Made by a program: the position numbers and the translations under genes
DNA from: Bryoerythrophyllum caledonicum
Lineage: Eukaryota; Streptophyta; Bryopsida; Pottiales; Pottiaceae
Assembly: GCA_963971425.1 (NCBI GenBank)
Contig: OZ020514.1
Location: 42,693,158-42,757,157 of the forward strand
Reading direction: 5' to 3'
Length of the DNA stretch: 64,000 nt
Notes under the pieces: model-generated
Told to the model about the DNA's origin: nothing
The model's database searches: none
What the model saw: only the letters and a program-made list of their open reading frames with translations
Shown: one piece after another, positions 14,030 to 37,197 of the stretch
Layout of the letters: each line of letters opens with the position of its first letter
How positions within the stretch are numbered: the first letter of the stretch is position 1

Positions 14030-14033
<4 letters not shown>

Positions 14034-14108: not shown

Positions 14109-14113
<5 letters not shown>

Positions 14114-14755: not shown

Positions 14756-14880
14756 CGAGATTACCACTGAATCAAAATGTCCTTTCTATAAGATTGTTTA
14801 TCGTATCAAAATTGAATTGTGCCTTGGTATTGATTTAAGAAAATTCATTACATATCACCTAAAGATAAGATTTAAGAAGT

Positions 14881-15803
14881 CACTACACAAAAAGTTTCAT
14901 TTACTGTAATTGCACGAATAGTGTACTTACTGTAGTACACTAATTGCAAACAAGTTGACAAATAGTGTACTAATTGCAAACAAGTGTACTTTCTCAAAAA
15001 GATTATTTGATCAATATTTACTTTATCAAAGATTACTTTATCGGAGTACACTTTATGGAAATATAATTTGTTTAAAACTTACTTTTTCAAGAGATTATTT
15101 TTTCAAGTTTTACTTCTTAAAAAGTTTACTTTTTTAGAATTGACTTTTTCAAACATTTACTTTTTCAAAAGTATACTTTTTCAAAATCTTAGTTTTTCAA
15201 AACCTTACTTTTTCAAAACCTCACTTTTTCAAAACTTTACTTTTTTCCAAGATTTCTTTTCAAAAGTTCACTTTTTCAAAAGTGAATTTTTTCAAATCTT
15301 TACTTTTTCAAATGTTTACATTTGGAAAAGCTTATTTTTACAAAAGTTTACCTTTGCAAAAGGTAAGTTGTCTTTTTTCCCCGAATTGATGTTTTTTCCT
15401 AGTTCTTGTTTTTTTCAAAAATGTTGTTTTTTCCTAATTGTTTTTTCCTAATTGTTGTTTTCGCAAAAATGTTGTTTTTTCCTATATGTTGTTTACCCAA
15501 ATTGTTGTTTTTTCCTAATTGCTCTTTTTTCCCAATTGTTGTTTTTTCCAATTTTTTCTTTGGGAGTTTTAGTTTTTCTCTTTTTCACCTTTTCGTACAC
15601 ATAATTCTCTTCTACTTTCAATACACTAAACGTGCACGAGTAAAAAAGTAAATATTCCAATCTTTACAAAAGTTCACAAATAGTGTAGTAGTTCACATTT
15701 AGTGTATTATTTTGTCACTACGCTAATTGCGTAGTTGACAATTAGTGTACGGGTTCGTATTTAGTGTCCACTACACTAAATGAAACTTTTAGTGTACTTC
15801 ATC
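14881..15803. mobile_element. Non-autonomous TIR element with internal tandem arrays
   Basis: The left end has CACTACAC followed by AAAAAGTTTCATTTACTGTA. The right end, on the opposite strand, reads GTACACTAAAAGTTTCATTTA, giving inverted ends that agree over about 20 bases. GAAGT precedes both ends read inward. TGTACTAATTGC and TAGTGTA motifs repeat beneath the ends, typical of subterminal repeats. No protein is encoded. Its ends resemble those of the element at 52588-53286 (ACACTAAA and TTTAGTGT), so they may be one family. CACTA-type is possible from the left terminus, but the right terminus does not match well. Confidence 0.6.
15060..15560. repeat. Two abutting degenerate tandem arrays
   Basis: 15060-15360 repeats a 14-16 base unit of the form TTACTTTTTCAAAA. 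15380-15560 repeats a unit of the form TTGTTGTTTTTTCCTAA. Open frames here are phenylalanine-rich repeat translations and not genes. The arrays lie inside the TIR element and probably grew by slippage. Confidence 0.85.
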
Positions 15804-17859
15804 TCATTTGTTATGAATCAATATTTACTCCTTTGAGTTGACTTTGCAAGATGATCTTGTCTCATGCGATATTGATTCACTTGCTATTATTAATTTATGT
15901 GTTTTATAATTCAAATCATCTTTGACCCTAAAGGCCCAAGAGTTCCCTTGAAGGATTCTAAGAATTTAAGGAAGTTCCTATAGAGTCAATTTATAAGTTT
16001 TTTGGTGTCGGCTCTAATAGCACATCCGTATCCTTTGATCGCAACATTATGCAATTGTCGCCATTATGGACATAAGTTTGAGTGCCTTCAAAAATTTATG
16101 ATTGCAATGTTTTTTAACGTCATTCAAACATATTGCAAGTTGATGTGTAACTTTGCGCACTTGCAAAAGTTTGGTTCCATCACTCTTCCCTTTATTGCAA
16201 ACGGTACTACCTTATATATGCATTCTTTCACACAAAATTCATGCGTTACATATTATACATAAGTATTTTCTACTATCCTTTCTCCCACATGAATAAGGGT
16301 CAAAGATCACATGCAAATGTAAAAACATTTGTTTAAAAAACTAAAGTTCATTATCTTGTACAACTATACTCGTATCAATATTTTCCATTGAAAACCACTA
16401 GTACTTTGGTTGAAAAACAATGGTAGTCTAGTATCCTCTAAGGCCTCCCCTGTTTCAACCGTAGAGTGTTACACATGTTTACAAAATTAATTTGAGTATT
16501 AGATTTGAGTATTGAATTTTCCTTGAATTTTATGGTATGATTTTTGGACTCCAGGGTCTGGTTTTGGGTGATTCCACGGAATGTGAGCAAGCTCCAAGGT
16601 TTGTTTTTTGTTCTGGACTCCAGTGCCTCATTTTCGTTTCTGACTCCAAGGAGGAAGCCCTCATCCTAGCACAATTTGAAGCAGTCGGGAGGACGGATAT
16701 GGGATCACCCTGGGCGGGATCGGGTGTGCGCCGAGTATACGGGTGTGTGCCTTGGCGGGTATATTGCCGAAGAGGAAGGCGCAACACACATTTGGCACGG
16801 TCGATGCCTTCGATGGCGGTTTCAACAGCAGGGACCTGTAGCAGTAGTCGGGTTGGCCAAGTCAGCCTTTCAAGGGATAAAGGTTGTCATGCCATCATCT
16901 TTGCAAATGATGAGTTGTAAACTTGGAGTAAAAAAGTTGTGAAGATGGAGTTGTGATCTTGGAGGTTGGCATACAAAGTTGGAGTTGCAAAATTGCATAT
17001 TCGAGTTGTGGAGATTGAAATTACAAGTTTTGAGATTGTAATTGCAAATTGAGTTTGTGGATGTGTGAAATTGAGATTGTAATTAAAAGTTGAGTTTGTG
17101 GGTGTGTGAAATTTGCATTTGTGTGTTGCAATTTGTGCTTATCCAAAATAAATTTGAAACTCTTGATTACAAATTTGATGTTCATAACATTTTTGAAATT
17201 CCATGTTAAAATGCAAAAAATCTAAAACCTAATTAATTTTTTTCTATTCTATTCTATTACATTATTAAAACTCGTGCATAGGTTTCAAAGATATATTTAT
17301 ATTTTATGTAGATTGTTGTTACTTTTTTTTTTAATATATTTTGTGATATAAAAACTACATTAAAATGGTTGAACTAATGCGTTGCAAAGCAAGCGCCAAC
17401 TGCTAGTATGTATTTGAAAATACAATCTCATTATTGAAGTTTTGTTTCACAACAGATTAGGATTCTCAATCCATGAAAGATATTTGATAGTTTTCAAAAT
17501 TAGATTTTTAATTTGAAGCCCCCTCATCCAATCACTAGATTCCAATCTACTTAGATATTTATTTAAACTCACTATTTTATCCATGATATTGCCATTAGGC
17601 CAAAATCTATGCATGTCTTTTAAATAGAATTAATTGTTTTGAACATATAAAAACTTTGGAATTGTATTTTTGGTTTTTATATATGTGCTATCACAAAAAG
17701 AAGAAGATTAAATATTGCAACTCAATTGTTTAATCATAAATCATCCAAAAACAAGAAATAAAAAAATATATATTGTATAATCCCAGTGTCTTTGATTTGC
17801 GTTCACTACAGGAAGTTTTTGAGTATGATATATACAAGCCTATAGAGTAGGTGCAAAAT
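15804..17859. other. Intergenic DNA, no supported gene
   Basis: 16537-16940 is less AT-rich and open in two plus frames, but there is no recognisable domain or splice support. 16920-17130 holds a diverged repeat of GAGTTGTGGAGATTGAAATT-like units. The rest is AT-rich with nothing seen. Confidence 0.35.
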
Positions 17860-18355
17860 GTATATAACACTAAAGGACCAGAGTCTCCTTCAGGGGGATT
17901 TATGATTTTGGGCAGGTTCCTAAAACTCGAAAAAAAATCTTTTTTCTCTAAATTTTTTATTCCGGATTGCCTCTGATAGGAGCTTCGTAGGCATATTTTT
18001 ATTTTATTTTTTGGATTTGTGTTTTGAAAGTTGGTACCACTTAAAGCCAAAAGTGGGAACACCGGGCACCTCCAATTTTTTTGACAAAAGTTTCTATTGA
18101 CATTGAGATTTTTCACACACATAAAGAATATTTCCTTTTCTGGAAATTTTCAATAAAAAATCTTGTCTTTAGTGTAAAAAGGCATTTTATTCCAAGTCAA
18201 ACATTTTCACACATTGTCGGGCAACGGGGGAAAAAAACTTCATCTTTTCTACATAAGACCTAGAGATCTTCAAATTTTTCACTTTTTATTTTTTCAACAA
18301 CAATATGTGGTGAAAACCTTCTTATTGACCGTTTTGATTATCATTTGAATACATA
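17860..18355 (-). repeat. Right copy of the inverted dispersed repeat
   Basis: The reverse complement matches 7893-8345 over its whole length. Open frames in it have no coding character. The pair lies about 10 kb apart in opposite orientation, with the DUF7869 gene and the TIR element between them. Confidence 0.7.
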
Positions 18356-20540
18356 CGTAGTACACAAAATAAAACGTGAAATGACAATCATTGAACCTCC
18401 ACTCCTTGCACACTTCTTTTGAATATGCTACACCCCTTTTCTACCTCTAAAAATTGGTGTGTTGGGAAATAACATCATGCTTAAGACAATGGTAAAAGAT
18501 TTAGACCTTGTACAATGCAAAAATTTGATAAAAAGTGAAGTCAAAGTCTGTTGATCTACTCAACGCAGGGAAGAAAATCAACCATTGTTTTGACTTTAAA
18601 CACTAAAATCTATCAATCTGTACGGTGGATTGCAACCAAAAGTTTAAGGCATGTTTATATGGAAGTTTTTTTAAGATCTTACGGTTGAAAATCCAAAATT
18701 CACTTTAAAATGTGATTTTCATGTCTCTTTTTGGCAGTGGCAGTTTTGGACTGGTTTTAGAGCGAAAGTGGTCGTGGTCCTTTAGGGGTTAATACATATA
18801 TTCATTTAAAACGTAGAGGTTGGAGACCCTCTCTATTGATACAGTTGAAAATCAATTAACTGATTGTTGTTTAGCTTTTCATGAGGTTCTACAAAGACTT
18901 GACTTGTAGTGGAAATGGGCATGAAAGAAAATTCTAAATGAATGAAATAAGTGGGCCCCACTTTTTCATTTGTAGACTATCCAGACTTGAAAAGCTATGG
19001 TTTTGGGTGCATGACGGGTTTAGGTGTCGACCACAGAAAGTCTACCAACTGGCTCATCTCTACAACATGGATGAAAATCATCCAGAACCCATGCAACGAT
19101 CAAACAGGAACCCGCGGATTAAATAAATAAAGCATCTTATACCTAAAACCGTTACTGGACTCGATGCCGTCACTAACCCCTATCTTGTAGATTTGATTCC
19201 ACCCGTTTCTACATTTTTACGGTTTTAGACGCTGAGGTGTTTGGTGTATAAGCTCCCCCAAACTCTCCCTTCTCCGTGTGAGCGCCCGCATCTCGCGGAA
19301 TGAAGCAATAGCAAGATAATTTCATTCATCCAAGTAACGAGAACCTGTCGATGAATTAAAAAATGAACTAACACCCAAAACCCAAAACCATTTTTCGTAG
19401 ACTCCCGGCCTCTCGATCTCTGTTCTAGGTACATGAAACATCCGTTTTTGAGGTCCCTGATGGGTTTGAGGCTTCGTCTTCACCGTGTAAGAGCAGACTT
19501 TTGGCTCGGAGTTTCCCAGCCTTCGCTCTGTTTTCGTGTCCCACACCGTTGCACTTGCTTATCATCGCACCGATCCTTCTTGTCTTCATCTTTTATCTAA
19601 AAAAGACATGTTACACTAGAAATTGAATTTAGATAAGTATGCCCCATATTTGCCACCATCACAAAAAGAAGGATCATCCAACTAATCATATGGTATGAAA
19701 TGCCATGGACGCACTTGCAAGGAGTGTAAATTTTCTACTCTTGAACAAGATACATTTGGTAGATTGAGGTGGATTTGTTGCAGTTCACGGGAAGATCAAA
19801 GAACCAAATCAAATGGACAAATTATGAATTGAAATGAGAAATTTTAGGCTAAAATCCAAATTTTAGCTGCTTTGGTCTTCCCAAGATGAGATTTGTGTAA
19901 AACCCATATATTACAGTTTTAACTTAGTTGCATTTTGGAAGATAATGGATAAGGTAACCCCTTGTATCCAATGAGAACTCATAATCAACACCAATAAAAT
20001 TAGGGTATATCCAACTGACTTCCATCCCATTACCACCTATTTAGCTCCAAGTGAAGGTTAGGGACTCAAAAGAATCCCGTACTTTTTGCCGGCACTATTG
20101 GGGGTACCTATTAGCGGTCACCGGCTAAAAAAGGCAACACACTTTGAAAATTCACAAAGAATTTACATTTCATCGAAAAAGTATGAAATCACTTGGATTC
20201 AAATTGTAATTATATTGGCTATCACCGAAAATTAAATTAGGTAGAATTATTTCCTCCCTCCATATATGCACATTGCTTAACCCTATAAGACCGATGAGCT
20301 TTTTTAGCCTCCAAGAATCTAGGAGTGTTCTAAATCATGCAGAATAACATCAATTCCACAAGGTACATAACATCAGAACCCCCACTTATGGAAATCATTG
20401 TCGCTGGTCTACGCTTGCACCGATATTTGCGGAGATTGTCTCAATAGAGCCCATCGTCCTCCACCTCTTTTTCATAGTTCAAGTCTTTAGCAGTTGCTAT
20501 TGAGATTATGGAAAGAGGACCCGAAATGGGCCATAACTTG
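18356..20540. other. Intergenic DNA, no supported gene
   Basis: Mixed AT-rich sequence. I found no exon chain, RNA gene or repeat boundary I could defend. Confidence 0.35.
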
Positions 20541-20544
20541 TTGG

Positions 20545-21172
20545 TTATGAACGGGTGAGGGAACGATGGGAATCATTAGAACAGAGAAGGGAGCGATGCG
20601 AACAGCGAAGCAGGAAAAGTCGGCTATGAACAGGTGAGGGAACGGTGGGAATCATGAGAACAAAGAAGGGAGCGATGCGAACAAAGAAGGGAGCGATGCG
20701 ATCAGCGAAGCAGGAAAAGGAAAGGAACAAATTTGGGAACAGGCGAGGGAACAGTGCGAACGGCGGAGGGCAAGAGGCCGGAGGGAGACGAAGGGCGTCT
20801 CTTTTCATCTTCTTGCGTGCCCCGAATCAGGCCCGGACCTGGACGCCGAGCTTGAAGGAGCGTGGCGCGCAGTGCGGTGCTCAGGCGGTAGCGCTGCGGA
20901 GATCAGGCAGTGAAAGTGGGTTCCGAGGGCGACGACTTCTTTCGAGAGCGCGGTCGTCGTCTGTGTGGTGAGTGAGGGAGCTGGGCCGCGAGTGTTTCCA
21001 GGAGAGAGGGCAGTGCGGGGCGAGAGACGGAAGAGCGTCTTGTGTTGTGTTGTTGCTGTGGGCGACGCCGAAGCGCAGGCGCACCACCGCGTAGCCTCAG
21101 ATCCAACGCCGAAGCGCAGGCGCACCACCGCATAGCCACAGATCCATCGCCGCACGCCATCATGAGGTAAGC
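20545..21172 (+). promoter_or_regulatory. GC-rich promoter or leader with short repeats and a candidate first exon
   Basis: 20570-20760 repeats purine-rich units such as GAAGGGAGCGATGCGAACA four or five times. 20780-21165 is strongly GC- and CpG-rich, unlike its surroundings, and repeats GCCGAAGCGCAGGCGCACCACCG-like blocks near 21065 and 21108. An ATG followed at once by AGGTAAGC near 21161 looks like a short first coding exon with a strong donor. TTTAGGGTT-type motifs follow at 21245-21350. This fits a plant promoter and leader. The gene it served is unclear; the proteasome-like pieces downstream are the best candidate. Confidence 0.4.
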
Positions 21173-22253
21173 CTACGCCGACAGGCCTGTGAGTTTGAAG
21201 TTTGAGGTATCGTGGGATCGCTGGTTTCGTGGTTTTGGTTGATCGCTGGCTTAGGGTTGATCGCTGGTTTAGGTTGATCGCTGGTTTAGGTTGATTGCGT
21301 TGTGGAGGTTGAGGTTTAGGGTTTCGGCTTCAGAGAAGTTTTTAGGGTTTGGGTGTCGTTGGTTGCAATTGGTGATGTTGGATTTGCCTGTAAGTTTTGA
21401 GAGTGTAGGTCATGAGCAATTCTGTGTTGAAGCCTTGGAACTTGTGGCGTTTTAAGCGTCGTTAATCAGTGTTGACGTGAATCAGTACACTGGAGTGGAG
21501 ATAGGTTTTCTTCGGAGTGGTGATGGAGTGGAGGTTTTGTTGAAGTGAGCCGGTGCAGGATGTTTGTGAAGTGGTCGGGTTGGAGAGGTTGTTAAAGTTA
21601 TTTGCGGCAGTGTTCGTTTCTGTATGGTTCCGCTGTGGGCATGGGCACGAGTTAAAAGCTGCTGAATTGGTTCCGTGTGGGATGAGCTGGGGTTGGTATG
21701 TGGTCTGAGGGTTCTGCAGAGGATATCTCTGTGGTGTGGTGAGGTGAGTGTGAAATTCGAGAGGTGAGGTTTGGAGGATGATCGGAATGCTTGGGTGCAT
21801 GGCGCCGCAAGTCCCAGAATTGGAAGAGTAGACTCCGGACCCCGCCATCGCCAAGACTAATTTTTGTCGGATTGTGCTACAGTTCATCGTCTGGTGCTAA
21901 TCGGAGAAGTGATCAGATCTCGGAATCCTAGTCCGATAAGCCCACAAGCAACAGCAGTTGGGAGGTTACTTACCTCTTACCTGAGTTGCTACAGTGCCGG
22001 AGAAGGACCGGACGTTAGTTCAGTCCTGCAGCGAGGTTTTTTGTTTTGGTGTGGCCTGGGAGGGTGGGTGAGTGTGAATTTCGAGGAGGTCTAGATGGGT
22101 GGTTAGGCCGATCGAGTGTTGTATGTGTACTGAGTGTTGGGCGGTTGGATTTTGTTGCAGGAGCTCGAGTGTGGGAGGATATGATGAGATGTTTGGTGGG
22201 AGCGTTGTCGGGAATCAGTGGAAGCGACGTGAATTATTTTGATTCTTTTGGAG

Positions 22254-23080
22254 GACTTCAAGCCCACCGAAATTGAGGTGTCCAGACTTCAAACCCGGCT
22301 GGACATTATTTTGGCTACAAGGTACGTGGACATTAGTTGCATGCCATGTCCAGATCCTCAGCTCTTAGAGTAGCCAATTGGAGGTCAACTGTACATTGCG
22401 ATCAGGTGGTCGATGTTAGTTCCGGACTCGTATGAAACATTACAGCACTATTTAATGAAGATAGATTGTAAATCTTGAGAGAGCTGGCTAGTCATGGTTG
22501 TAGTTACTTGTTTGCATGACTCGAATGCTCTTAATGCAGGCAACCAGCTCTAGTTCCAAGGACCAAGAGGCAGTGAATTTCGTCGAAAAGAAGATCAAGA
22601 ATAATCTGCAACTCTCATACGAGCAAACCGTTCAAGTGAGTCTCCGTGCTAGCTGCTTTGAATGTTCGAAATTGTTAATTTGCTGAGAACTTACTCGTGC
22701 TAGCTGCTTTGAATGTTCGAAATTGTTAATTTGCTGAGAACTTACTCGTGCTAGCTGCTTTGAATGTTCGAAATTGTTTGAAGGTTCAAAATTGTTTGGC
22801 CTCAATTTCAAAATTGTTTGAAATTGTTTGAAGGAGTCATCAGATAACCTGGATATGAACTGTTTGACCTCAATTTCGGTGGGCTTGAAGTCTGGACTCG
22901 TGCTAGCTGCTTTGAATGTTCGAAATTGTTTGAATGTTCGTAATTGTTTGAAGGTTCGAAATTGTTTGAAGGTTCGAAATTGTTTGACCTCAATTTCAAA
23001 ATTGTTTGAAATTGTTTGAAGGAGTCATCAGATAACCTGGATATGAACTGTTTGACCTCAATTTCGGTGGACTTGAAGTC
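22254..23080. pseudogene. Scrambled fragments of a proteasome alpha-subunit gene
   Basis: A spliceable exon at 22540-22635 (+), between a GCAG acceptor and a GTGAGT donor, encodes 32 residues including KDQEAVNFVEKKIKNN and SYEQTVQ. This matches the late helix of proteasome alpha subunits of the PAA/PSMA6 type. The segment that should follow it, DFKPTEIEV, instead lies upstream at 22254-22280 (+) and occurs twice more on the minus strand, near 22863-22895 and 23052-23078. Order and orientation are therefore wrong for a working gene. The upstream piece runs on as SRLQTRLDIILAT to a GTACG donor. I read this as captured and rearranged gene pieces, as in Pack-type DNA transposons, or as a shattered duplicate. 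Confidence 0.5.
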
Positions 23081-23085
23081 TGGAC
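22646..23085. repeat. Tandem and direct repeats around the proteasome-like fragments
   Basis: A unit of about 56 bases starting CGTGCTAGCTGCTTTGAATG is repeated three times at 22646-22775 and recurs near 22898. A motif AAATTGTTTGAAGGTTCG recurs many times. A block of about 100 bases at 22798-22900 is repeated directly at 22985-23085, including the minus-strand DFKPTEIEV piece. Confidence 0.85.
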
Positions 23086-23709
23086 AGGTGCAATAGTGGT
23101 GATTACGAGTAGCAGCCACCTGTTGGACGATTGTGTGTTGAAGGAGGCGCTCATCAGTGGCACTGTCGTTGGCGTTGCCTTGGATGGCATTGAAGGGCCC
23201 CAGTGGCTCGAAGCTTGGGTACATGATCTTGTGCATGACTTCTCTCGTCTTTCTGTACTCAACTTGATTTTATGTTGCCGTTCTCCTTCCACGGGTGAGA
23301 GAGATGCCGAACGTGCTGATCCTTCTGTGCAGTGCAGACTACAGTGAAGAGGTCTCAGCCGAGATACGGTCAAATGCTTGACTCCAGGAAGAAGTTGCAT
23401 TCAGAGTTATACGGGTTCACCTTGGGATGAAATCCTTGTGATGTTGTAATTTTTTGTAAGTTGGGAGTTGGTAGGTTTTTAAGTTGAAGAGTTTCGGCCA
23501 CTTATCTTAGTTTTGAGTTTCTAATAGTGATTGGATTACGATTCAAAGAGGGGACATTTTGTCACTGAAGCAGCTCCTTTGTGTGACATACCTCAAGCCA
23601 TTTGTTTGAAGATTCAAGAGGTTGCAAAAAAAATGGAAATGAGGTAGGTAGACTCCTATGGAACTTGCAATTTGAATGAATTTTGTAATTTTTCATTCAT
23701 ATAATTAGT
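23086..23709 (+). other. Possible leader exon region before the ParB-like gene
   Basis: 23096-23347 is open on the plus strand and moderately GC-rich, but I recognise no domain. Near 23643 the sequence GAAATGAG is followed by GTAGGT, a good donor. It could pair with the CAG acceptor at about 24501, just before the start codon at 24511, giving a 5' untranslated intron that holds the palindrome cluster. Confidence 0.35.
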
Positions 23710-24431
23710 GCATATTCAGCTCAAGTCGAGCTGAATATGCACAATTGGTTGATCACGAGGTGCATATTTAGCTTGGGTAGAGCTGAATGTGCACGTGCAA
23801 TTTTGAATGATGTGCATATTCAGCTCGACTCGAGCTGAATATGCACAATTGGTTGATCACGAGGTGCATATTTAGCTTGGGTAGAGCTGAATGTGCACGT
23901 GCAATTTTGAATGATGTGCATATTCAGCTCGACTCGAGCTGAATGTGCAGAGTATGATGAGCTTTGTGTGCACATTCAGCTCGACTCGAGCTGAATATGC
24001 ACTTCCGGCTCATTAGTATGAGCACAAATGATTGATCGTAATGTGTACATTCAGCTAGAGAGAAGCTGAATGTGCATCTTGATTTCAGCTATGAATGCAT
24101 ATTCAGCTCGACTCGAGCTGAATATGCACAGTCTAATGAGCTTTCTGTGTACATTCAACTTGACTCATAATGAATATACACGTTCAGTTCACTAGTTCAT
24201 GGGCGTTACATTAATATTTATCAGCACATTCAGCTTGACAAGAGCTTAATGTGCACGGTAAAACATTTGTGTGCACATTTAGCTCAAGTAAAGCTAAATG
24301 TGCAATAGAAATGATAAAAAACTTCAAACAATTGCAAGTGGTAATACAAGATTTGAAACTTCTTGATGGAACTACACCTGTGCAATTAAGTGTCGTATTG
24401 CATATTCAGCTCGACTCGAGCTAAATATGCA
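23710..24431. repeat. Main palindrome cluster, about 12 copies
   Basis: About twelve copies of the 31-base palindrome, at roughly 23710, 23761, 23816, 23867, 23922, 23970, 24046, 24097, 24147, 24224, 24271 and 24399. The best copies have 15-base arms GCATATTCAGCTCGA and their exact complement around one central base. Two units of about 106 bases (23730-23835 and 23836-23941) are a direct duplication. The copy near 24271 has ATTTAGCT in the left arm and AGCTAAAT in the right, a paired change that keeps the fold. Confidence 0.92.
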
Positions 24432-24510
24432 AAGTTAAGAAAAAATTGTAATACATTCAGTACGTATAATAAAATCTGAATTCACTTACGGACTCCATTG
24501 CAGAAATCCA

Positions 24511-27500
24511 ATGAACGACCAAGAAGTCCTGGATCAATACTATAAACCAATAAGTATTGCGATCGAGTCCGACGACGGAGAGGAGCACGAGTTACTCAAC
24601 TGCTACGAGCTTCGAGATCCAGAGAGGCATGAGGCGTGGGGGTTCGAACATATCGGTCACTCTAACAGCTTGGTGTTGACTCACAAATTTCGAGGCATGG
24701 ATATGTTCTTGCACGTTTCACCGAATGAGAAGATAATCGAGTTTGACCACCACAAGAAGTTCCTCGTGGTTAAAAGTGAGACGACAACTGAAAGTAGTCT
24801 TCAGTACACGGTTCTCATCGACTGCATGACTCAAGTCTTCAGCCTTGATCCCTTTCTCGACAGTATTGAGAACTCATTATTTGAGTCAATAAAGAAGGAC
24901 ATCCTCAAACAACAGGACGAAGATTACTGGAAGAGCAGCATTGGCGGGCCTCTTCGCGCTAAAGCTTTGTCGTCAAAGTTGACAAGTCTCCTTCATGCAA
25001 TGGCAATGAAGGTTCTTCAAAACTCGCAGACCTCATCCGAGATGACTCCGGTGAAGGTCTCTCGTAGGACCGAGAGTGGCAATGTCAGCCAAGGCGATAA
25101 CACTGGACAAAAAACTGCAGCGGCTCGAACTGGCAAGGTTAATCCGAGGAAGTCGTTGTCTACAAATCCAACGCCACCAAAGAGGCAGCGTCGATCACTT
25201 GCTCCGGAGGCTTCAACTCGAAGAGCACTAAAATCTAGTGCAAAAAACCAAGAAGTTGGTAAGCCAGACGTTGAGGCCAGCATCGTCTCTGCGATCACCG
25301 ATTTGCCCCACGAGTTGCATCCTGGAGAAGCCATTGACTACGGAAATGCATCCGAAGTGTACGAAAAGTTCTGGACAGATTGCCAGGACTGCTTCCTCTA
25401 CGACCCTGACATGAAGAAGGAGTTGGATGTGCGGCAGTTATCACCAGCACCAGAGGACTGGACAATTCGGGCCTTTGAGAAGAAGGGCATGGACGTGGTA
25501 ATGAATTACCTCATAAACATGCCCGATAAATCCATCAAGCAGACGCTTTGCGTGATGCCGATAACAAACGAGAAGCCTGATGGAAACTGGGAAGACATTC
25601 GAAAGGGGAAGTTCTACATCATAAATGGCCAACATAGCGTGGCGGCAAGCTTAGCGATGATGGCGGATGAATCTATTGACGAGACCACAGTGAGACACTT
25701 TCGCGTATGGAAGTGCTTTGTCGTATGGTCCGATGACAAAGAGAAGCTGCGTAAGATCTCGACATTCTACAACCGAGTCAATCACTTGTCCGTCTTCAAG
25801 CCAACGTGGTCGACCAACATCCTATCTGCACGGTCGACATGGACTAATCTAGGTCGCCCAACACCACCACAGAAGAAGAATACCCCGGGTGGCCGTGGAG
25901 CTCCAAGAGTCAACGACAAGGCGTATAAGGTTAGCAATCCTGATTACGATTGCATATTCAGCTCGACTCGAGCTGAATATGCAAACCTTGGCGAATGCAT
26001 ATTCAGCTCGACTCGAGCTGAATATGCACACCCATGTCAACAATTGTTCTGTATTACTAAGATTATTGTTATGCCTCCTGCAGGAGTTCATTGAGGCCAT
26101 TCAACGTCGGTTTGCCTGCATTGACGTTGCAAAGAACCAGCAGTATGCTAGTAAATCTAGTCAGGTTCCTCAGCTGACTCTCTCAAATGAGGTCAAGATT
26201 ATCACGTCGCCTGATTCTACTTTCAATCTCTGGCGAGATGTGATGGCCGCAAGCGCTCAAGGCGACTTGATTGAGGTTGACACCAACCCCTTGCGCAAAT
26301 TCAAAGACAACCTGAAGTCGACGCCAGCGAAGGATGGTGGTCTGAATCGAGAGTTCTTCAAGTGGCTCAATGGCCTCACTGATGCAGATCATGTGAAGTT
26401 GTTGAACCACATTTTGAACCGCAGCGGACCAAAACGGCGACTGCAGTATCCGAAGGTGGTCATCAAGACACCAACCAGTGTATTGGATAGTAATTACACG
26501 GCTTTGGAATGGATCGAGCGGCGCAAGAGGAAGAACGTCGTCCGTAGGGAGTTGCAGAAACTAAAGCCTAGTCTTGCATTTTTTGATGCAAACAAGAATT
26601 TTGTTCCTGGAAACTGGAAGCGTTTTAAGCGTGAATATCACGTCTCATCCGCAACCATGAGGGTGCTTGTCGATCAACCCGGTGAGGCATTTTTCACTGA
26701 GGCGCGACAGCTTCGGAGCAAGAACAAGTCTGCGGAGGAGCTATCGCCGTACGCAAAAGCTTGGTTTAAGTTGTTCTTAGACAAGCGCCAACATTTTGAA
26801 GAAGCGTCCGGGTCTGCATACATCCGAAAGTACAACATCATCAATGATACGTTGGGTGTGTGGCCCGAAAACACATGGGATCCCCGCGGCGAAAAGCCTC
26901 GGCTTGGATTGATCGATTTCAGATCAGCTCCCGGGCAAGATTTAAAGCCAACATCAACGGTGGCTAACCCATTCTTCAAGGACTTCATGGAGGCATTGCG
27001 GACTGGAGGCAGCCCTGGACTGACAGACCCAGATGTCTGGCTATGGATTTGTGGGACCAAGACAGAGGAGAGGCAAATCTTCTCCATAACCGAGAAATCC
27101 CCATTTGTGGACGAATACGTGACATATAGTTCCGCATACATTCCTGGTAAGTATGAGCGGCTCGATGATCTGTCGAAAGGCAACAAGTTGTCAAAAGATT
27201 CTGTGGAACTTCTTTGGCTAGTCCGTAAGCAGTTAGCTCGCTCTAACTTAGTTACAAAGGAGTATGTCTATCCGCTTCATGTTGCAAACACCAAGGTCCG
27301 CAAGTACAACGAGTTGGAGTATCGTGTAAACACTACTGAGTTCACGATGGAGTTCTACTTTCAAGTACTCAAAGAATGGTGCAAACCCGGGGACTTAGTC
27401 TTCTCTGCCTTTGGAGGCTCAAAGTTTCTTATTGCATCTATGGTAAGAATTTCTGCCGAGCTCTCCTGTTTGCATATTCAGCTTGACTCGAGCTGAATAT

Positions 27501-28716
27501 GCAAGTGCTTCTCGATCATTAGTTCTGAGTTGCATATTCAGCTCGAGTCGAGCTGAATATGCAAGTAGTGTAGTTTCATAGAATGCAATTATATGTCGCT
27601 TGAGTTAGTTTGATTGATTGCTAGTGTCTCTGGTGTGCCTTGCAGATCGAATCTCTAGAGTGTGCCTGCATCTGCGAGACTTCTGAGAGTGATCGGTACG
27701 AAAGCAAGGCCAAGTTGGCTTTGTCTCTATGCAAAGCGGATTTCGTTGCCGACGGTTATCCAGTTGACGAGACAAAGTACCCTATTAAGCCCCCTCGTGG
27801 TAAGGGTAAGGGAAAGAGACGAGTTGATGACGACGATGATAATGAGGAAGATGATGATGAGCAACCTACTGTGGATGTTACGAGCTCAGATGTTGCGGTA
27901 GCTGAACCATCAGACCCCGCTTCTGCTCGCGTTAATGAAGGCGCAGATATTGAAGCATATTGTGCGAATGATTATGAGGATCTTGCTCTTCGTCGGTCCA
28001 GTGTAATTGCAGGTGGTGCTGGTCCATCCAACAATCGGTCGCAGAGTAAGGCTGATTCCTCAGATGGAAATACTGACGATGACATTGAAGTGATGGCTTC
28101 TGCGCCAACGCCCCCCCACAAGCGCCAACGAACTCCTGTGACGGTTAACTCGCCCGCGCTATCGACGTCCCCTCCCACTGCACAAGCTGATATGTCATTG
28201 AAGGTCGAGATGCTCTTAAAGAAGGTCGAGGAGCAAGAGAGGCTCAACCAAGAGTTGTCAAGACGGCAGGAAGAGCGCCAAGATGAGCTCCTTGCAGCGC
28301 AGAGAGCCGAGATGGAGCGGAACACGCAAACGATGATCGCTTCTATGTTTGCAAGGTTCGAACAGATGTTGCCACCGCAGTCCAAGCCGGTAGAGCATAT
28401 TTTAGGTGCAACTCCTGAGGCGGCTGCAAGACCATCGTCTCAAGGCCCTACTGTTATAGAGACGGTCTCCTCGTTTAAAGAGGCGTATGTCCAACAGTCT
28501 TTGTTGACATCGGATCCGAAGACGTCTTCTCCTCTTTCACCGCCACAAGCAATAGCCTATGTTGGAGCCGAGCGCATGGTTTCCGCCGATCCCAGTGTTC
28601 AGCCAATCAATGTGATCCCGGTGAAAGAGACTGAAGTTGCTAATGAAGTCAACACACCGAGCAACACTCAAGCATCTCCAGGACACTCTTCAGGTGGAAT
28701 TCTCGATGAGAACTAG
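24511..28716 (+). CDS. ParB/Srx-like domain fused to a DNA-methyltransferase-like fold
   Basis: Exons 24511-25929, 26084-27442 and 27646-28693 (or to the stop at 28716) join at phase-0 GT-AG introns. ATG 24511 follows a CAG acceptor. Residues 300-385 resemble ParB/sulfiredoxin domains: RQLSPAPEDW, then VMPI, then FYIINGQHSVAAS (about 366-378), like the IDGQHR box. Residues 740-950 resemble a beta-class N6A/N4C DNA methyltransferase. PGDLVFSAFGGSKFLIAS (about 908-925) stands where DPFxGSGTT is usual, followed by CICETSESDRY where GIExxxxY is usual. RLGLIDFRSAPG (about 747) stands where DPPY is expected. Both key motifs are altered, so catalysis is doubtful. The exon 2/3 junction lies inside this fold and restores it, which supports the splice model. 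The last 350 residues have an acidic run (DDDDDNEEDDDE), basic patches and a coiled coil (about 1109-1168), suggesting a nuclear protein. ParB and methylase domains are fused in many phages and bacteria. Presence in a plant suggests transfer or a mobile element. The domain calls are from motifs only. Confidence 0.7.
25930..26083 (+). repeat. Intron 1 with two palindrome copies
   Basis: The 154-base intron (GTTAGC to CTGCAG) holds two perfect palindromes at about 25951-25981 and 25998-26028. They fill 40% of it. Because the intron happens to stay open in both flanking frames, its translation (repeated STRAEYA) can be mistaken for protein. Confidence 0.9.
27443..27645 (+). repeat. Intron 2 with two palindrome copies
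   Basis: The 203-base intron (GTAAGA to TTGCAG) holds two palindromes at about 27473-27503 and 27532-27562. One has CTTGACTCGAG at its centre, the other CTCGAGTCGAG, so the central base and its neighbours vary. Confidence 0.9.
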
Positions 28717-29267
28717 TATATCGAGTATTCTTGTTGTTGTTAATCATGTTTTCCTAATTATTTTCGTACATTAAGTTATGTTTGTAAATAATCTTGGATG
28801 TTTATTGTCCTTTTAAACCTTGGTTGAGTAAATTCGATGTTGTTTCCATTTCGAATCTCCTTAATCACTTCTCTTCGTTGTATGATGTTTTCGTCTTGAT
28901 CCATTTATTTTTTCTTTATAGACTACACTTAAGTTGAATTAAATGTACTGCAGATAAATAGTAGTATATCTCTCTCTGTTTTTTTCCGTTCAGTCCTTCT
29001 CCTTAAGTCATTGTTACTTCTATTGCATATTCAGCTCGACTCGAGCTGAATATGCATTACTTTCTGTATATCATGTTGTTCTCCCTCTGTGTACATCATA
29101 TTGAAATTCAAGTTGTCCTCTCCCTTGTGCATCCAATTGTTGAGTACTCATACACTGGCACAATCAGTTAGAGTCGAGCTGAATGTTAATCTTCTTTAGT
29201 ATCAAGTGGCGTTGCATTTTTGAGGCATGCTTGTTCATAACCTGTAATCAAATTTGCTGAATTTCAG
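28694..29267 (+). repeat. Probable intron 3 with one perfect and one decayed palindrome
   Basis: Between donor CAG/GTGGAA at 28694 and acceptor TTTCAG at 29267 lies a perfect palindrome at 29025-29055 and a decayed copy near 29160-29190. The donor leaves one base and the acceptor exon supplies two, so phase 1 is kept. The stop codon at 28716 would fall inside this intron. If the intron is not used, the upstream gene ends at 28716. Confidence 0.6.
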
Positions 29268-30322
29268 ATGCCCTAAGCCTCGAAGTCGATTTCATAAAAG
29301 ATGATGCTGGCTCTTCTCAGCATCCTCCTATGGTTGGTGCAAAGCCCATTGATGCTACTTTGGCCATCAACTCACAGGTATAACCTTAATCTCACCACTT
29401 CATGGCCAAAAAGATTGTGCTGTCTTTTGCAGTGCTTCCTTCTTCGTATAATATTATGTGCTCTATTGTTATATGATGTTTAATGTTTAGTAACATGTAC
29501 CTCCACTCTTTCCCATCTGAATTCCAGGTGGTCGAGCCTCTGGAGAGCGTTCATAGCGCTGTAGTCCGTGTTCCTTGTTCAACCCCTAGAGTGGTCAAAC
29601 CGTGGTTAAACATTGTGTTTGACTTGAACGGTATATTGTGTGTGTGCGAGGAATTCCGCTTGAGGTCTGCTACGCAAGCCTTCAATGCATGTTCTCTACC
29701 ACACTCGGTAAAAGTTCCAGCCAAGGTCGGCCCAAAGCTAGTGTATGTTCGTCCAGGCTGCAAGGCATTTTTGGACGCTGTTTCCAAGTTTGCATCGATA
29801 TCGGTCTGGAGTTCGATGAAATTGAACACCACTAGTAGCATCGTCAATTACCTCTTCCCAAAAGCGGCCTCACCAAAAGTCATATTTGGGCAAGAGCATT
29901 GTAGGAGAGTCGTAACTGCTGTGATCCATAATGTACCTCAATATCTGAAAGTTAAGAACTCAGATAAGGAGGTATTTCTGAAGACGTTGTCGAAAGTCCT
30001 ATTTACTGAAAAGGGTGTCTCCTTTACGAAGGAGAATACCATCATCATAGATGACAGTCCGTACAAGCACGTCCTTAATGATCCGGAGAATGTTCTTCTT
30101 GCGGATACCTGGTCCTACAAAGAGGATGGATGGAACGATAAGTTCCTTCTAAATGTCTTGCTTCCATGGCTCCAAAAGCTCCACAGTAGTGCAGAGTTAG
30201 GGCTGCAATCTTTTCGGCGTGGGAATCCCTTTGGTCGTCCAACAATTTGCTCGGATCCATATAGCTTAGAGTACATGGAATTAACGCACGCGATTATGAT
30301 ATCTGATGGGCTCTCAAATTAG
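29268..30322 (+). CDS. FCP1/NIF-like HAD-family phosphatase domain, probably spliced to the upstream gene
   Basis: Exons 29268-29377 and 29528-30322 join in phase 0 across a GTATAA-TTCCAG intron. The second exon encodes an FCP1/NLI-interacting-factor type HAD domain. Motif I reads NIVFDLNGIL, with the nucleophile Asp kept and the second Asp replaced by Asn, as in a known group of plant HAD proteins. YVRPGCKAFLDAVSKF and SVWSSM give the next blocks, and IIIDDSPYKH keeps the acidic pair of motif IV. FCP1-like enzymes remove phosphate from protein Ser/Thr, classically the RNA polymerase II tail; with Asn at the second position activity may be low or absent. No ATG opens the first exon. It fits in phase 1 to the donor at 28694, which would give one protein of about 1576 residues. 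A separate gene with an unseen first exon remains possible. Confidence 0.75.
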
Positions 30323-30618
30323 AAGTTCTCTGGTATCAATCATAAATGTGTTGATGTATTATACTATACATATCTTATAAGTCAAGTGGCAGTTGCCAGT
30401 TCTTTGATATTTGTTTGTAATTTTCCGTTTGTAAATTGTTGGATTTGTAAGTTTTTGTTTTCTCTTTGCTTCCATGTTTGAAAAAGAGCCATTAATCATT
30501 TTCTCATGTAAACTGTTGTATTGCCACCGTGGATTCTGTTTTGAAGTCAGAAGATTGTGGATATCGAATTCAACGTAAACATAATGATTTGTACTCCCGC
30601 GGAGCAGCTGATTATTCG
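30323..30618 (+). other. Spacer and possible 3' untranslated region
   Basis: T-rich sequence with TTTGTAA-type motifs follows the HAD stop codon. 30529-30618 is open in the frame of the next exon but has no ATG, so part of it may be coding through an upstream exon that I cannot place. Confidence 0.4.
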
Positions 30619-31574
30619 ATGGACTCTTCGATGGCTCCAGTTGAAGAAGATGAAGTCAACAGCCCCCCACCTAAAATTTGCATTCGAAAGGTTGCCTCCC
30701 GTTCTATTCTTCAACCTCGTCAAATTTTGGGGTCCCCCGGTGTTGATGGGATTTGTGGGAAAGGTGACCAAGTGCTTGTTCCCGGACGTGAGGAATCATT
30801 GTCTCTTCCCCCGCATAGCATGGTATTCCCCCCCTCCCCTTCTCTGTATTTGTCCTAGGTCTTTTTTGGCAATGTGCACATTCAGCTCGAATAGAGCTAA
30901 ATGTGCACAAGTTTCATTTTAACTCTCTTTGTCCCTACGTCGTAGGATCACGCACTTCAAACTCTTGCTGGTGTAATTCAACCACCTACGACGGTGCCAT
31001 CAGAGAAAATGCCCTCAATTCCTACTACGTGTTGGCCTGTTGCAACGGTCGGAAATGATGAGAACAAGCTCCAATCTCTAAGTGGGAAAACGCATTCTAA
31101 TATTGAGGTTGGTCTTATTTTTTGTTATTGTTTAGTATGTGTTGTATCTTCAGTTGAATACTCATCACTGTTTTGATTTTGCATGTTTCACGAACACCTA
31201 AATTGGACATAATTATTTGAATGGATTCCACATCATGGTGTTTGTGTTTTTTTGACATGTGTGGCTACATATTCAGCTTGGTTTAAGCTGATTTTTGTGG
31301 TCTCTTTTGCTAGGTGCTTCAACCGACTATTGAGCGTCAAAGTGCTTCCCCAAAGCATGGTTTAAACCAAAACTCAAAGCGTCACTCTCGCCGTCGCCAC
31401 TCACTTCCTGTGCCTATTGTTACTTGGAACCAACGAATGCAACGCCAACGACTGCAAGAACATATACGGGCTAGTCAAATGCCATATACCGGTTACAGCC
31501 GCAAAGATGAACTTCAGAGGGGTAGAGATGAGCTGAGGAAATCTAATTCTGGTGACGTGGAGAAGAACAAGTAG
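30619..31574 (+). CDS. Small basic protein of unknown function, three exons
   Basis: Exons 30619-30822, 30946-31107 and 31314-31574 join in phase 0 at good GT-AG sites (CATG/GTATTC, TCGTAG/GATC, TTGAG/GTTGG, TGCTAG/GTGC). From ATG 30619 this gives 208 residues. The open frame runs back to about 30496, so an upstream exon or a non-ATG start is possible. The last exon is strongly basic with KRHSRRRHS and QRMQRQRLQEHIR, a likely nuclear or nucleic-acid-binding tail. I recognise no family. Palindrome copies sit in its introns (30877-30908, and a decayed copy near 31266) and just past its stop (about 31598-31632). It therefore belongs to the same locus as the ParB-like gene and could be its C-terminal continuation or a partner. 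Confidence 0.5.
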
Positions 31575-31632
31575 ATTTATGATCTGAGTGGTACAAGTGC
31601 ACATTCAGCTTGGCTATACCAGAATGTGCATT
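30876..31632. repeat. Palindrome copies in the basic-protein gene
   Basis: One copy at 30876-30908 (TGCACATTCAGCTCGA on the left), one strongly decayed near 31266-31292, and one at 31598-31632 with the outer arms kept but the centre changed to TTGGCTATACC. These are the last copies of the family seen going right. Confidence 0.75.
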
Positions 31633-32748
31633 GACTAGGAATTAATGTGTATGTTTTTGGTCGTAGTAGAAGCCTTTTTTTGCATGGAAAGGATGATGCA
31701 TGTTTTGTATATGGATTACTTCTATCATATAATAAATATAGTGTGCAATTAAAGATATTATTTCATTTGATTCTCCAATTTGGGTACTGTTTGCCCATAC
31801 ATCTTCATATTATCTTACAAAAATGGTGTTGTACTTCTATTCTAATCATATTTTGCTTCATCACTACGGTAAAATATTTGGATTACTCAAGAGCGTGTAC
31901 CTCCTAAATCCCTGGAAATCTCCCAATATAATGAATATGGTGTTAGATGCATTCGCAACCAGTGGTATCCAATCGCACTTCTTGGTTGACCAGTGATAGA
32001 CCGTCACAGGCTACCGACCAGTGATAGACGGTCATTGGACCTACCATCAGCAGTAAACGGTTCTTCCAAGGTTTGGAGGTAATGGCGGGAAACCTGACCA
32101 GCCGGTTACATTTGACTAGCACCTTGTAGATGTTGGGGTGTCGTGGTATTCTAAAGATCCAGTTTTGTTTCAGAGGTGTGTGTTGGAGAGTTGTAGGAGA
32201 TTGTGAAGCCCAATGAAAGAGAGATATGAAGTGTTAGCTCAAGGACGATTTGGAAGCTAGAACTGTAGTAAACATTGACACGATCCGTCTTTCACTTTCA
32301 ATTTTGTTTTACTTGGCTTGAAGTCCGGTGTGTTCTAGTTTTGTGTGTTACAAACCCCAAATGGTTTTGAGCTAGAATGTCGCTTGAGAGAGCAATACTC
32401 ATAGTCCTTTTTGAATTAGTCCGAGCTAAAATCAATCCATGTTTAGTCTACCATTTTTGGAGTTTAGATTTAGGAGGTTTAGGGTCGATGTGGTGTCAAT
32501 CTCTTCAGTGGAACAAAACTCCACCAATGTTTTCTCTTTGTGAAGCTAAAATGTGTTTGTTTCGTGCATTCCGTTTTTGAACAACTCGTACAATTTGTAC
32601 AGTTTGAACAGCTCCTGCAGATGTAATAAATTGACGCAGACTTTGGGATGTTCACAAATTGATGTTGTAAGCTACCTTGTCCTGTTGCTATCTGATGTTG
32701 TTCTTGTTTTGTGGCTAAATGTAGTTTAGGCGTCGCGGAATGACGTAG
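31633..32748. other. Intergenic DNA between the two gene sets
   Basis: A short direct repeat (GACCAGTGATAGAC) occurs at about 31988 and 32018. 32575-32640 begins the TTGTAC-rich composition seen to the right. No gene is supported. Confidence 0.35.
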
Positions 32749-33779: not shown

Positions 33780-34600
33780 GTATGTGGATGACCACATATA
33801 TGATTACATTGAGAGAGTTCTTCAGATGGGGAAATTGGAGTTAGAGGCTGCGATTCATATTTAGCAACAAGTTGCAAAGGCGAAGGAGGAATAGTGGACC
33901 AAATGTGAGTATGAAACTGGAGTTTTGACTAAGTTGAAGAGGTTGCAAGATGTATCAGTTCCCGATGAAGAGGTACCAGCAAGGAATAATGCTTTGAAGG
34001 ATTTGATGAAGATCTCAAGTGCTGAGGTGAGAAGGTTAATGGTAGCTGGTGTCAAGTCACAGAGGGACCTAGAACATCACAATGATCGAGTTGCGAGGAA
34101 GCGGTTGGAATTGGGAGCTCTTGAAGCTAAGCATGCCCAACTTGGGCGTGCTCTCGGTGGCCATCACATGAGGCCCATGCCCATGGTGTATACTTCCGTA
34201 ATGGGACCTTCTACCTCAGTGAGTTCTCTTGATATTTCAAATTGCGTGCTTTGCGCCTTTCCTTTCCCAAACCCAGAGATTGTGGTTTCTAGTTGTCGAC
34301 ATCTTTACCATCCATGGTGTGCCCTAGTGAATTTTTCCAACTCGGCCAAGGATTGTGCTCATGGTTGCTCCACGGTTCAACCCAAGGAGTGGACTGTAAG
34401 TTTTGATTGGAGGGGCGTGCCAGGTTGGAGGCAAGCTCGCAGTGGAGGCAAGGATTTTGTGACATTGATGGGTGAAATGGCTCCATTGGTCAGTACAATA
34501 GTAGCAGCTCGAAGTGAAGATGCTCGAGCTAAAGAGGCATATTCAACCGCACCAAGTGATTTCATTGTCCACGGTTTTTTATACAATTTGGACAATTTTT
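33780..34600 (+). pseudogene. Coiled-coil plus RING-like zinc-finger exon
   Basis: Following a CTCATAG acceptor at 33779, the frame encodes YVDDHIYDYIERVLQMGKLE and a long helical region. It is interrupted by two TAG codons before 33925, each where CAG would fit the coiled coil. It then runs open to about 34600. Residues of the open part include EVPARNNALKDLM and a helix to about residue 90. A RING-like finger follows: C-x2-C-x13-C-x-H-x2-H-x2-C-x11-C-x3-C (34243-34365, key residues CVLC, CRHLYHPWC, CAHGC). RING-type fingers act in ubiquitin ligases or in protein contacts; the C-x3-C end pair is unusual. It probably belongs with the exons before and after it. Stops indicate a decayed copy. 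Confidence 0.5.
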
Positions 34601-35316
34601 GTACCGTAGGAAGGTATTTTATTGTTCTAGTCCTTCATGTTTGTATATTTCTGTGTTGGTTAGAGTTTTGTGTTACAGTCTTGTATTTTGTTCAAAATTA
34701 TATATACTTCTATCCATATGGATTTGTATGTTTGTTATTTGGTTTGGACTTGTGGTATAGAGAGCTCTAATCGTTTGTATATCTATGTGCTAGTTTGTAT
34801 TTGTATGCTTTCAATTCCGAGTACCTCTTGGACTTACAATTTTAGGTGTACATTGTTTTCTTCTGTTTGTACTTGTATTCAAATGGATTTGTATGTTTTG
34901 TTATTTGGTTTGTACTTATGGTACTAAGAGCTCTAATCGTTTCTATATTTGTGTGCTGGTTTGTACTTCTTAACTTTCATAACCGAGTATCTCTAGGACT
35001 TACAAGTATAGTTGTACATTGGTTTATTTTGTTAGTACTTAAATTCAGATGGATTTCTATGTTTCTTATATGGTTTGGACTTATGGTACTGAGAGCTCAA
35101 ACTATTTGTGTTAGTTGGATTAGTTGTACTTAATTTGTTATTTATTTAAACTAATTTGTACCAATTTGGATGGTTTGTACTGATTTGTACTATCTTGCAA
35201 TCCGTATTATCAATTTTTGTATCAACTAGGTTTGGATTTGAATGTTATTGGTTTCCAATTATCATGCCCAGTGTTGTAACCTTGGTGTTCTTTATTGTCC
35301 TTGTGCCAATCTGTAG
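34601..35316 (+). other. TTGTAC-rich non-coding stretch, likely intron or spacer
   Basis: Rich in TTTGTAC and TTTGTATG motifs and containing three diverged repeats of about 190 bases (around 34690, 34855 and 35030) that share GGATTTGTATGTTTGTTATTTGG-like blocks. No exon is seen. Confidence 0.5.
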
Positions 35317-35744
35317 GAATCCGCATCTCTGAGTCGCATAAACATGTGGAAGAAGAGCTTGAAAGTGAGCCTGTAGCACTTGCGGATGCGGAGGCTCATT
35401 GTTTGGAGCTAGTGGAGCGGCTTGCGGATGTGGAGCCTCCGCGTGTATAGCTGATGGAGCCGGACGCAGATGTGGAGCATCCTTGTGTGGAGCTAGTGGA
35501 GCCTCCTACAGATGCAGAGCCTTTGCGTGTGGAGCCTCAATGTGGGCAGCTGGTGGTCGCGTTGGATCCTAACCCATATGATATTGAAGCGCCGGTGGAG
35601 CCGTTGGGGCAGAGGAGAAGTAAGAGACAAAGGTGTACATTGAACAAGGAAACGGACACAAGAGTAGAAGACCCAAAGAAGAAGCAGGGGGAATCTTCAA
35701 AGAAGAAAAAAGAATCCAAGCCACGGCCAAAAGTGAGAAAATGA
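35317..35744 (+). pseudogene. Acidic repeat exon with nuclear-signal tail
   Basis: After an acceptor (CTGTAG at 35316) the frame encodes a Glu/Pro/Val-rich stretch built from diverged repeats of about 17 residues (VELVEPPTDAEP-like). It has one TAG at about 35449 where the repeat would predict a sense codon. After that it is open from 35454 to 35744. It ends in basic nuclear-type clusters (GQRRSKRQRC, SSKKKKESKPRPKVRK). I infer it is the C-terminal exon of the coiled-coil/RING gene. No enzyme domain is seen. Confidence 0.45.
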
Positions 35745-36088
35745 GTCTTTTATCTATTCGGTTAGTATAATTTTCGGCAGCTACTTCAAGTTTGCAATGG
35801 CTCTCTATTTGGTCGGGGGAGTCATTCCAACCTTAGTATGAATTTGAATTCGCAACGTGAATTTGAATTCTTAGAATGACTATGGTGTATATCTCTTTGG
35901 TTAGACTCTAATATAAGAAGATTACGTGTTTTTGAGGTTGCATTTTTATTGCATTTCTGTCCATAGAAACAACCATGTTTTGATGCAACGGACTTATCCA
36001 ACGGACTCGAAGCTATTCTAGTGTCGGTGTGCCTCGATAGCACAAAGGTCCATGAGTTACAAGGATTTACTTACATTTGTCACTGCAG

Positions 36089-37197
36089 GATGTCTACCAT
36101 TGCAACCCAAGTACGTAACGTGAAAATGGAATCCCCAAATTCTTGCCCTGATTGCAATAGTAGGTGTGTTGGACGACATGGCTGCAGTAGTGGGATGAGA
36201 AATCTCAATCAAATACCATATACAAACCGAGGTCGACTCCGAAGTGTCCTTCTTGACCAACTTGTGAGTGTACAATTTTTCTTCCTAAGTACCTTGTTGT
36301 ATACTTTGTATTGAATTTACTGCTGTGTACAAGATTGGTACAACATATACATTTATTTATTGATTAAAGCCTTGGGCAGGATTTGATGGAGGAGATATTG
36401 TTTTGCGGTGACGGCTGTTCCGGGGAGCCGGACGAGGTTGCTTGTCCTGGCCACAGAAACAAGCTTTCTTTGCAGGAATGCACTAGTTCATGCACTTGTC
36501 CGCGTTCATGTGGAAATCGAGTGGTCCAAAATGGATCACTTATCGCAATACAAGTGTTTTGGTCTGGAGATAAGGGGTGGGGACTAAGATCTAAGAATTG
36601 TATTTCTAAGGGTAGTTTTGTGTTTGAGTATGGAGGGGATGTAGTGACAGATGCTGAGTTGATGCATCGGAGGGCCTCAAGAAGACTAGGGAAGTTAGAG
36701 GCATACAGTATGACGCTCAATGCCAAGTGGAAAAAGGAAGAGTATCCGGATAATGTTACATTTTGCATCGACGCCACAAAATTCTCCAATGCCACAAGGT
36801 TTTTGAATCATAGGTATTTCCTTCAAACCCCAAAATGTATATAGATGATTGTTTTGAAATTTTGTTGGAAAACTGTAATTTGTAGTTTGATTTTAGTTTT
36901 GAATTTGTGTGTGTCTATTTTTTCTAGAGATGTGAAGATGCAAACCTTATAGATGCCCCAGTTAATTTCAACAACAGTGACATGCGATTATACCACGTAG
37001 CCTTCGTCGCACGAGTCAATATTCCGGCTTGGGAGGAATTGACTTGGTATGACGGCTGTTGCTTTGATAGATCAGAGGTTGGCGAGGTAGATGTTGTATG
37101 TCCTTTTCATTGTAAGTGTGGTAGCACTCACTGCCGGGACACAGTAATTGACTATCCAGCCATTCAAGTCGCAGTTGACATTTCCAATTTTGAGTGA
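36089..37197 (+). CDS. SET-domain protein of the SUVR (H3K9 methyltransferase) type
   Basis: Exons 36089-36263, 36380-36813 and 36930-37197 join at GT-AG introns. The last junction splits a codon and restores RFLNHRCEDANLIDAPV, which matches the NHRCxDANL block of plant SUVR proteins. Pre-SET cysteines are visible: CPDCNSRCVGRHGC in exon 1, and SCTCPRSCGNRVVQNG in exon 2. The SET core has KGWGLRS, FVFEYGGDVVTDAEL and LYHVAFVARVNIPAWEELTW. The post-SET CxCGSxxCRD ends the protein. SUVR enzymes methylate histone H3 Lys9 and repress transposons. One oddity is that the usual ELTWDYG reads ELTWYDG, so the conserved Tyr is displaced and activity is uncertain. Exon 36089 begins in phase 2 with no start, so a 5' exon lies upstream; the protein may continue from the RING/acidic exons. 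The frame is otherwise whole. Confidence 0.75.

Follow-up and report, generated by a model that had tools for sequence, protein, structure and literature searches.

The 64,000-nucleotide stretch of moss DNA analysed here (Bryoerythrophyllum caledonicum, C1:42693158-42757157; hereafter the window) contains a gene, which we call gene B, whose predicted product carries a GQHS box in a ParB/DndB-like setting, a disputed methyltransferase-like region and an FCP1-like HAD domain, raising the question of what such a combination is doing in a plant. A sequence-only reading had suggested a mobile element or a nuclear regulatory system. The mobile element is borne out by inverted repeats, target duplications and at least 20 pairs of ends, whereas a single nuclear regulatory gene is not: positions 9200-31944 are a recently active cut-and-paste terminal-inverted-repeat DNA transposon, which carries gene A (encoding a DUF7869 protein), gene B and gene C (a predicted spliced frame) (Table 1). 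For gene B itself, we see roughly even chances that its product is a DNA-binding accessory or anti-silencing protein of the element, directed at the element's palindromes in the manner of the VANC proteins and of bacterial DndB.

The terminal inverted repeat is 28 bp long and perfect at both ends in all 13 copies checked, and a 4-bp target duplication was found in 12 of 13 copies with flanks read, the copy at C15:430412 being the one without it. Matches to the left and right ends pair into at least 20 copies in the 437-Mb genome, with both ends matching at 99 to 100% in 19 of the 20 pairs and the left end of the C7 copy at 98%, while one left end on C35 is without a partner among the matches listed. 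The paired copies span 22,327 to 23,018 bp in 19 of 20 cases and 33,820 bp in one. All copy counts are lower bounds, with the best 30 of 4108, 40 of 510 and 40 of 711 candidates scored. The long copy (C1:2441102-2474921, 33.8 kb) has perhaps been stretched by a nested insertion.

Searching the genome with the gene B protein yields at least 73 matches, many of them 97 to 99% identical (among the best 30 of 4108 candidates), and the long DNA matches of the young loci L001-L018 share 99.5% or more identity with the window. The copies on C15 and C3 are homologous to the window from about 9200 to 31944, and outside the element ends there is no homology longer than 200 bp except a 421-bp match of locus L038 to 57.4-57.8 kb. 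The intact reading frame of gene B would also suit a ParB-methyltransferase-HAD plant regulator outside mobile DNA, but the window copy and the 12 others with ends read sit in an inverted-repeat transposon. This explanation is extremely improbable and is refuted for this locus, where the element ends rule out a stand-alone nuclear gene. Among the titles and abstract openings listed in literature searches, none concerned this element or the fused protein.

A second feature of the element is an array of 33-bp palindromes with the consensus TGCATATTCAGCTCGA(C/G)TCGAGCTGAATATGCA. At up to 11 mismatches in 33 positions, the window holds 27 of them, all inside the element, and none occurs in three random sequences matched for dinucleotide composition. 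None of the 27 lies within the approximately 8,230 coding bases (a count in which two gene C borders are one base off), and gene B intron 4 contains none of them. Allowing up to three mismatches, the genome has about 1750 occurrences on each strand, against none of a reversed control pattern. All 10 isolated sites sampled, which were picked by eye from the listed C1 sites and not at random, are element-derived, being 75 to 96% identical; the idea that the palindromes form a genomic repeat of their own, unconnected with the element, was therefore rejected. Most arms are paired in a set of 91 distinct sites, whose members are not independent of one another and were found by reference to the consensus; the pair 5/29 is T-A in 29 sites, C-G in 29 and mixed in 28. 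Older copies of about 81% identity hold many sites with the same consensus, an agreement that is partly circular because the sites were found by their likeness to it. The number of sites varies between copies, with extra ones in intron 1 of L041 and 30 sites in 4.5 kb in three old loci. Read from the sequence, the palindrome holds symmetric CG and CHG sites and could therefore report methylation.

Gene B joins five exons in phase, with GT/AG borders, into a protein of 1576 amino acids, using the open frames 24439-26094, 25853-27496, 27625-28716 and 29477-30322; the earlier suggestion that the HAD exons fit the upstream donor thus agrees with the model. Older copies, including three of about 95% identity, preserve the splice borders at every exon end that they still contain, and 16 of the 17 young copies L002-L018 have an open exon 1. 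Reading exon 3 on to the TAG at 28714-28716 gives a form of 1282 amino acids without the HAD domain, and since exons 1 to 3 alone end at this stop, a short form is possible. The same stop might instead separate two genes, one for a ParB-like protein that stops at 28716 and one for the HAD domain from about 29.3 kb, as the stretch holding it is unchanged in L039-L041 and both Physcomitrium predictions and several Ceratodon ones are without the PF03031 label. However, the donor at 28694 and the exon 4 borders are kept in three of three copies, and the HAD motif is found within the same protein in 15 of 18 homologue predictions (automatic ones), which makes two genes unlikely. Of the proposed single gene with three domains, the single gene and, by profile, the HAD domain stand, the ParB part has a weak DndB match, and the methyltransferase-like fold found no support.

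The HAD domain in the last exon matches the Pfam NIF family (PF03031) with an E-value of 6.6e-19 and 68.6 bits against a cut-off of 21.8, confirming the domain as first proposed, and the Pfam search of the gene B protein shows nothing else above cut-off. Like the FCP1/SCP HAD phosphatases of this family, the window protein keeps the IIDDSP motif, but DLNGIL replaces DxDx(T/V), both here and in all eight homologues showing the stretch, turning the second catalytic Asp into Asn. Unlike these phosphatases, the domain is also fused behind a long transposon protein and has no PDB match at E≤0.01 in a single-sequence search. The GQHS box is present as INGQHS, with GQH at residue 373 instead of about 366 as first given; NGQH is found in 19 of 19 sequences, and the form is GQHS, not GQHR, in the window protein and 17 of 18 homologues.

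The methyltransferase-like fold fares differently. No methyltransferase family was listed at E-values up to 1, 5 and 10, although above 0.1 most matches are discarded by the HMMER filters. In all 19 sequences, Lys replaces the second Gly of the motif-I-like stretch (xGxK for xGxG), and a (D/N/S)PP(Y/W/F) motif occurs in none of the 19, P0002 having DPPV. An active methyltransferase was rejected on these grounds, namely the lack of a profile match, of motif I and of a DPPY-type motif. Further matches were judged to be due to chance: Perilipin_2 (E 0.00091-0.003, below its cut-off), DUF7240, DUF2239, TPR and TetR, SMYD2 and others in the PDB, and weak PHROGs.

Since the three named modules are without their usual catalytic residues, a binding or recruiting role is favoured, and we infer that the gene B protein may be mainly a binding or recruiting module. 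Gene B could also be a captured host or bacterial cargo gene with an enzymatic function (FCP1-like phosphatase or nucleotide-modifying ParB/methyltransferase) unrelated to the repeats, given that the HAD domain is clear and members of the ParB superfamily are described as potentially enzymatic (PMC10853773). However, the catalytic signatures are gone (DLNGIL, GQHS, xGxK and no DPPY-type motif), and SCP4 with the double change D293E, D295N, the evidence being for both changes together, is described as phosphatase-dead (PMC5936716), making an enzymatic cargo gene improbable.

Among the matches listed, gene B has 18 homologues, 16 from Ceratodon and two from Physcomitrium, in a search limited to scoring the 7999 candidates with the most shared words; one Ceratodon 90% cluster comprises 139 sequences. 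The protein is thus not unique to this genome. The core identity of the homologues to the window protein is 38 to 47%. PF03031 is the database's own label on 10 of the 18, all of them Ceratodon predictions, and the later HAD motif I[IF]IDD is kept in 15 of 18. The DLNG stretch is absent from eight of the 16 Ceratodon predictions, which is probably a prediction difference. By our reading of the locus tags, 12 of the 16 Ceratodon homologues (P0001, P0003-P0017) are on the U or V chromosome. Database annotations call the relatives FCP1-domain or hypothetical proteins, and the Ceratodon ones may be transposon genes too, illustrating that domain names taken from one gene can mislead.

Gene B is under purifying selection. 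The ratio of nonsynonymous to synonymous substitution rates (dN/dS) against the window is 0.28, 0.27 and 0.28 for L039, L040 and L041, respectively (about 95% identical), and 0.38 for L042 (about 90% identical and truncated). In the same order, the ParB region gives 0.13, 0.09, 0.17 and 0.29, and the methyltransferase-like part gives 0.60, 0.60, 0.52 and 0.80. For L039-L041, the values are 0.26, 0.24 and 0.35 in the HAD domain, which is absent in L042, and 0.60, 0.60 and 0.37 in the charged linker.

The anatomy of the element closely fits the VANC pattern. VANC proteins are described to bind motifs of their own family that are packed in non-coding DNA and introns, in arrays varying by tandem repetition, and to cause methylation loss (PMC5735166). 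Like Arabidopsis VANDAL/VANC as described there, the element is a plant DNA transposon with accessory genes and a family-specific motif of varying number in non-coding parts and introns. It differs in having a 33-bp palindrome instead of the 9-base VANC motif, a 4-bp target duplication and a DUF7869 protein, as well as a protein B that combines a ParB/DndB-like region with a HAD domain and whose binding is putative. The VANDAL transposase is of the MULE type. The element would work like VANDAL/VANC without being a member.

By analogy with VANC, DNA binding and anti-silencing by protein B could be envisaged as follows. The DUF7869 protein of gene A would act as transposase, and the ParB/DndB-like part of protein B would bind the palindromes flanking genes A, B and C and in most introns, with the remaining protein, including the HAD domain minus one catalytic Asp, chiefly serving to bind or recruit. 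Spread over the element, protein B would keep transcription going against host silencing and/or, VANC-fashion, set its own expression. To our knowledge, VANC is the main case in which it has been worked out how a plant transposon uses a protein of its own to escape silencing. If the proposal is true, this young moss element, present in many copies and equipped with an array of palindromes and a conserved accessory protein, would be a second, apparently unrelated and directly testable case. We more tentatively propose, as a possibility with the balance somewhat against it, that moss transposons evolved element-specific anti-silencing independently of VANDAL/VANC, in which catalytically worn ParB/DndB-, methyltransferase- and FCP1-like modules read the 33-bp palindrome with its symmetric CG and CHG sites, distributed around all genes of the element and in most of its introns.

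DndB, a regulator of bacterial DNA phosphorothioation genes (PF14072), offers a second comparison. The Salmonella protein is described to bind TACGN10CGTA palindromes in its own promoter, where one of the regions it protects measures 33 nt on the coding strand (PMC4507180), and DndB has been assigned to the ParB superfamily (PMC10853773). Gene B shares the GQH[RS] motif with this palindrome-binding protein but sits in a eukaryotic transposon, and its profile match to DndB is weak (E 0.0096, in one of five rows).

Several observations weigh against a VANC-like, palindrome-binding protein B. The weak DndB match is the only pertinent family match of the ParB region; a profile search of the genome with ParB_N (PF02195) found nothing, NCBIfam has no match for this region, and the best PDB hit has an E-value of 0.27, so that the ParB-like domain of the sequence-only reading is plausible only by way of DndB. 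Nothing was found in plasmids, phages and viral contigs with 125 amino acids of Ceratodon P0001 and two peptide patterns, and a distant copy there was rejected for these queries. Stops interrupt gene B in all four older copies examined, and 207 bp of exon 1 are missing from L040, indicating that the older copies are decaying; whole-gene openness is accordingly seen for the window copy only. Finally, the function of the palindromes could lie with gene A or a host factor: of the 27, three are situated about 300 to 590 bp inward of the left end, and a further one about 310 to 350 bp inward of the right end.

In En/Spm and Ac, transposition proteins are known to bind arrays of subterminal repeats. 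The palindromes, which also occur towards both ends (9504-9786 and 31598-31630) and beside gene A, might thus be binding sites of the DUF7869 transposase, or replication or transcription sites, gene B being an unrelated second accessory gene. However, 20 of the 27 sites lie within or near genes B and C at 23.7-31.3 kb, remote from the ends, and we regard this alternative as somewhat unlikely.

Gene A has 97 homologues listed at E≤0.001, including Ceratodon and Physcomitrium proteins; six of the 97 stand for clusters of more than 100 sequences. An alignment of 30 sequences shows conserved HDKMD, QxDN and GHTHxDxD stretches, because of which gene A is likely a DDE/D-type transposase; the PDB search gave no credible relative (best E 0.2). 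Sola2 transposons are described with 4-bp target duplications, terminal inverted repeats and a long transposase, of 888 amino acids in one case (PMC3627910). The element resembles them in these three points, a likeness by description and not by transposase sequence, and its 4-bp duplication fits Sola2 among others, but its target duplications are not AT-restricted (e.g., TGGC and AGAG). KDZ and other fungal transposons are described to carry TET/JBP, acting on a DNA methylation mark (PMC12730594); unlike in these, gene B is without a TET/JBP match, and gene A matches DUF7869.

Gene C is open, with its splice borders kept, in three of four older copies. A weak tblastn match at 30511-30876 (E 1.5e-4) had suggested that it corresponds to the C-terminal part of P0003, which was unconfirmed, the spliced gene C protein having no blastp match to P0003 or other homologues at E≤1. 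No RNA families were found at gathering score.

Table 1. Features of the transposon and its genes, in window positions
Feature	Position	Strand	Remarks
Whole DNA transposon	9200-31944		22,745 bp; boundaries common to copies on C15 and C3; left/right end pairs
Left terminal inverted repeat	9200-9227	+	AACACCATATTCATTATATTGGGAGATT
Right terminal inverted repeat	31917-31944	-	Perfect complement of the left one
Target duplication, left	9196-9199		AGAT
Target duplication, right	31945-31948		AGAT
Three palindromes	9504-9786		Downstream of gene A
Gene A	9856-12711	-	DUF7869 protein, 951 amino acids; PF25273, E 1e-42
Three tandem palindromes	12846-12946		Directly upstream of gene A
Internal repeat-rich stretch	12950-23408		Without palindromes; AT-rich at 14-20 kb
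Twelve palindromes	23709-24431		Upstream of gene B
Gene B exon 1	24511-25929	+	N-terminal part and ParB/DndB-like GQHS region
Two perfect palindromes	25951-26028		Gene B intron 1
Gene B exon 2	26084-27442	+	Conserved middle and start of disputed methyltransferase-like region
Two palindromes	27471-27563		Gene B intron 2
Gene B exon 3	27646-28693	+	End of motif-I-like region and charged linker
Two palindromes	29024-29189		Gene B intron 3; second degenerate
Gene B exon 4	29268-29377	+	In phase; splice borders kept in 3/3 divergent copies holding exon 4
Gene B exon 5	29528-30322	+	FCP1/NIF-type HAD domain
Gene C, predicted	30619-31574	+	208 amino acids; exons 30619-30822, 30946-31107, 31314-31574
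Three palindromes	30875-31630		One in each of gene C introns 1 and 2, one beyond its end; last two degenerate

The internal stretch at 12950-23408 is probably variable cargo, because homology to the element ends at 23408 in seven of the nine older loci L019-L027. Degenerate repeats of TTTAGGG, which we take to be the plant telomere-type repeat, lie within the element at 14491-14751. Four of the 10 sampled palindrome loci (L045, L047, L048 and L050) share a common junction between element positions 28998 and 11324, at which part of gene A is inverted beside the HAD end; this form is apparently a rearranged, amplified derivative.

To the right of the element, 33895-36844 holds a RING-like open reading frame (weak, below cut-off) and a SET-domain open reading frame, and pieces of a Copia-type retrotransposon (GAG-pre-integrase, RVT_2) lie at 44817-50657. 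On the minus strand at 903-2192, an open reading frame of 429 amino acids has no Pfam match; by eye it resembles Ulp1 proteases.

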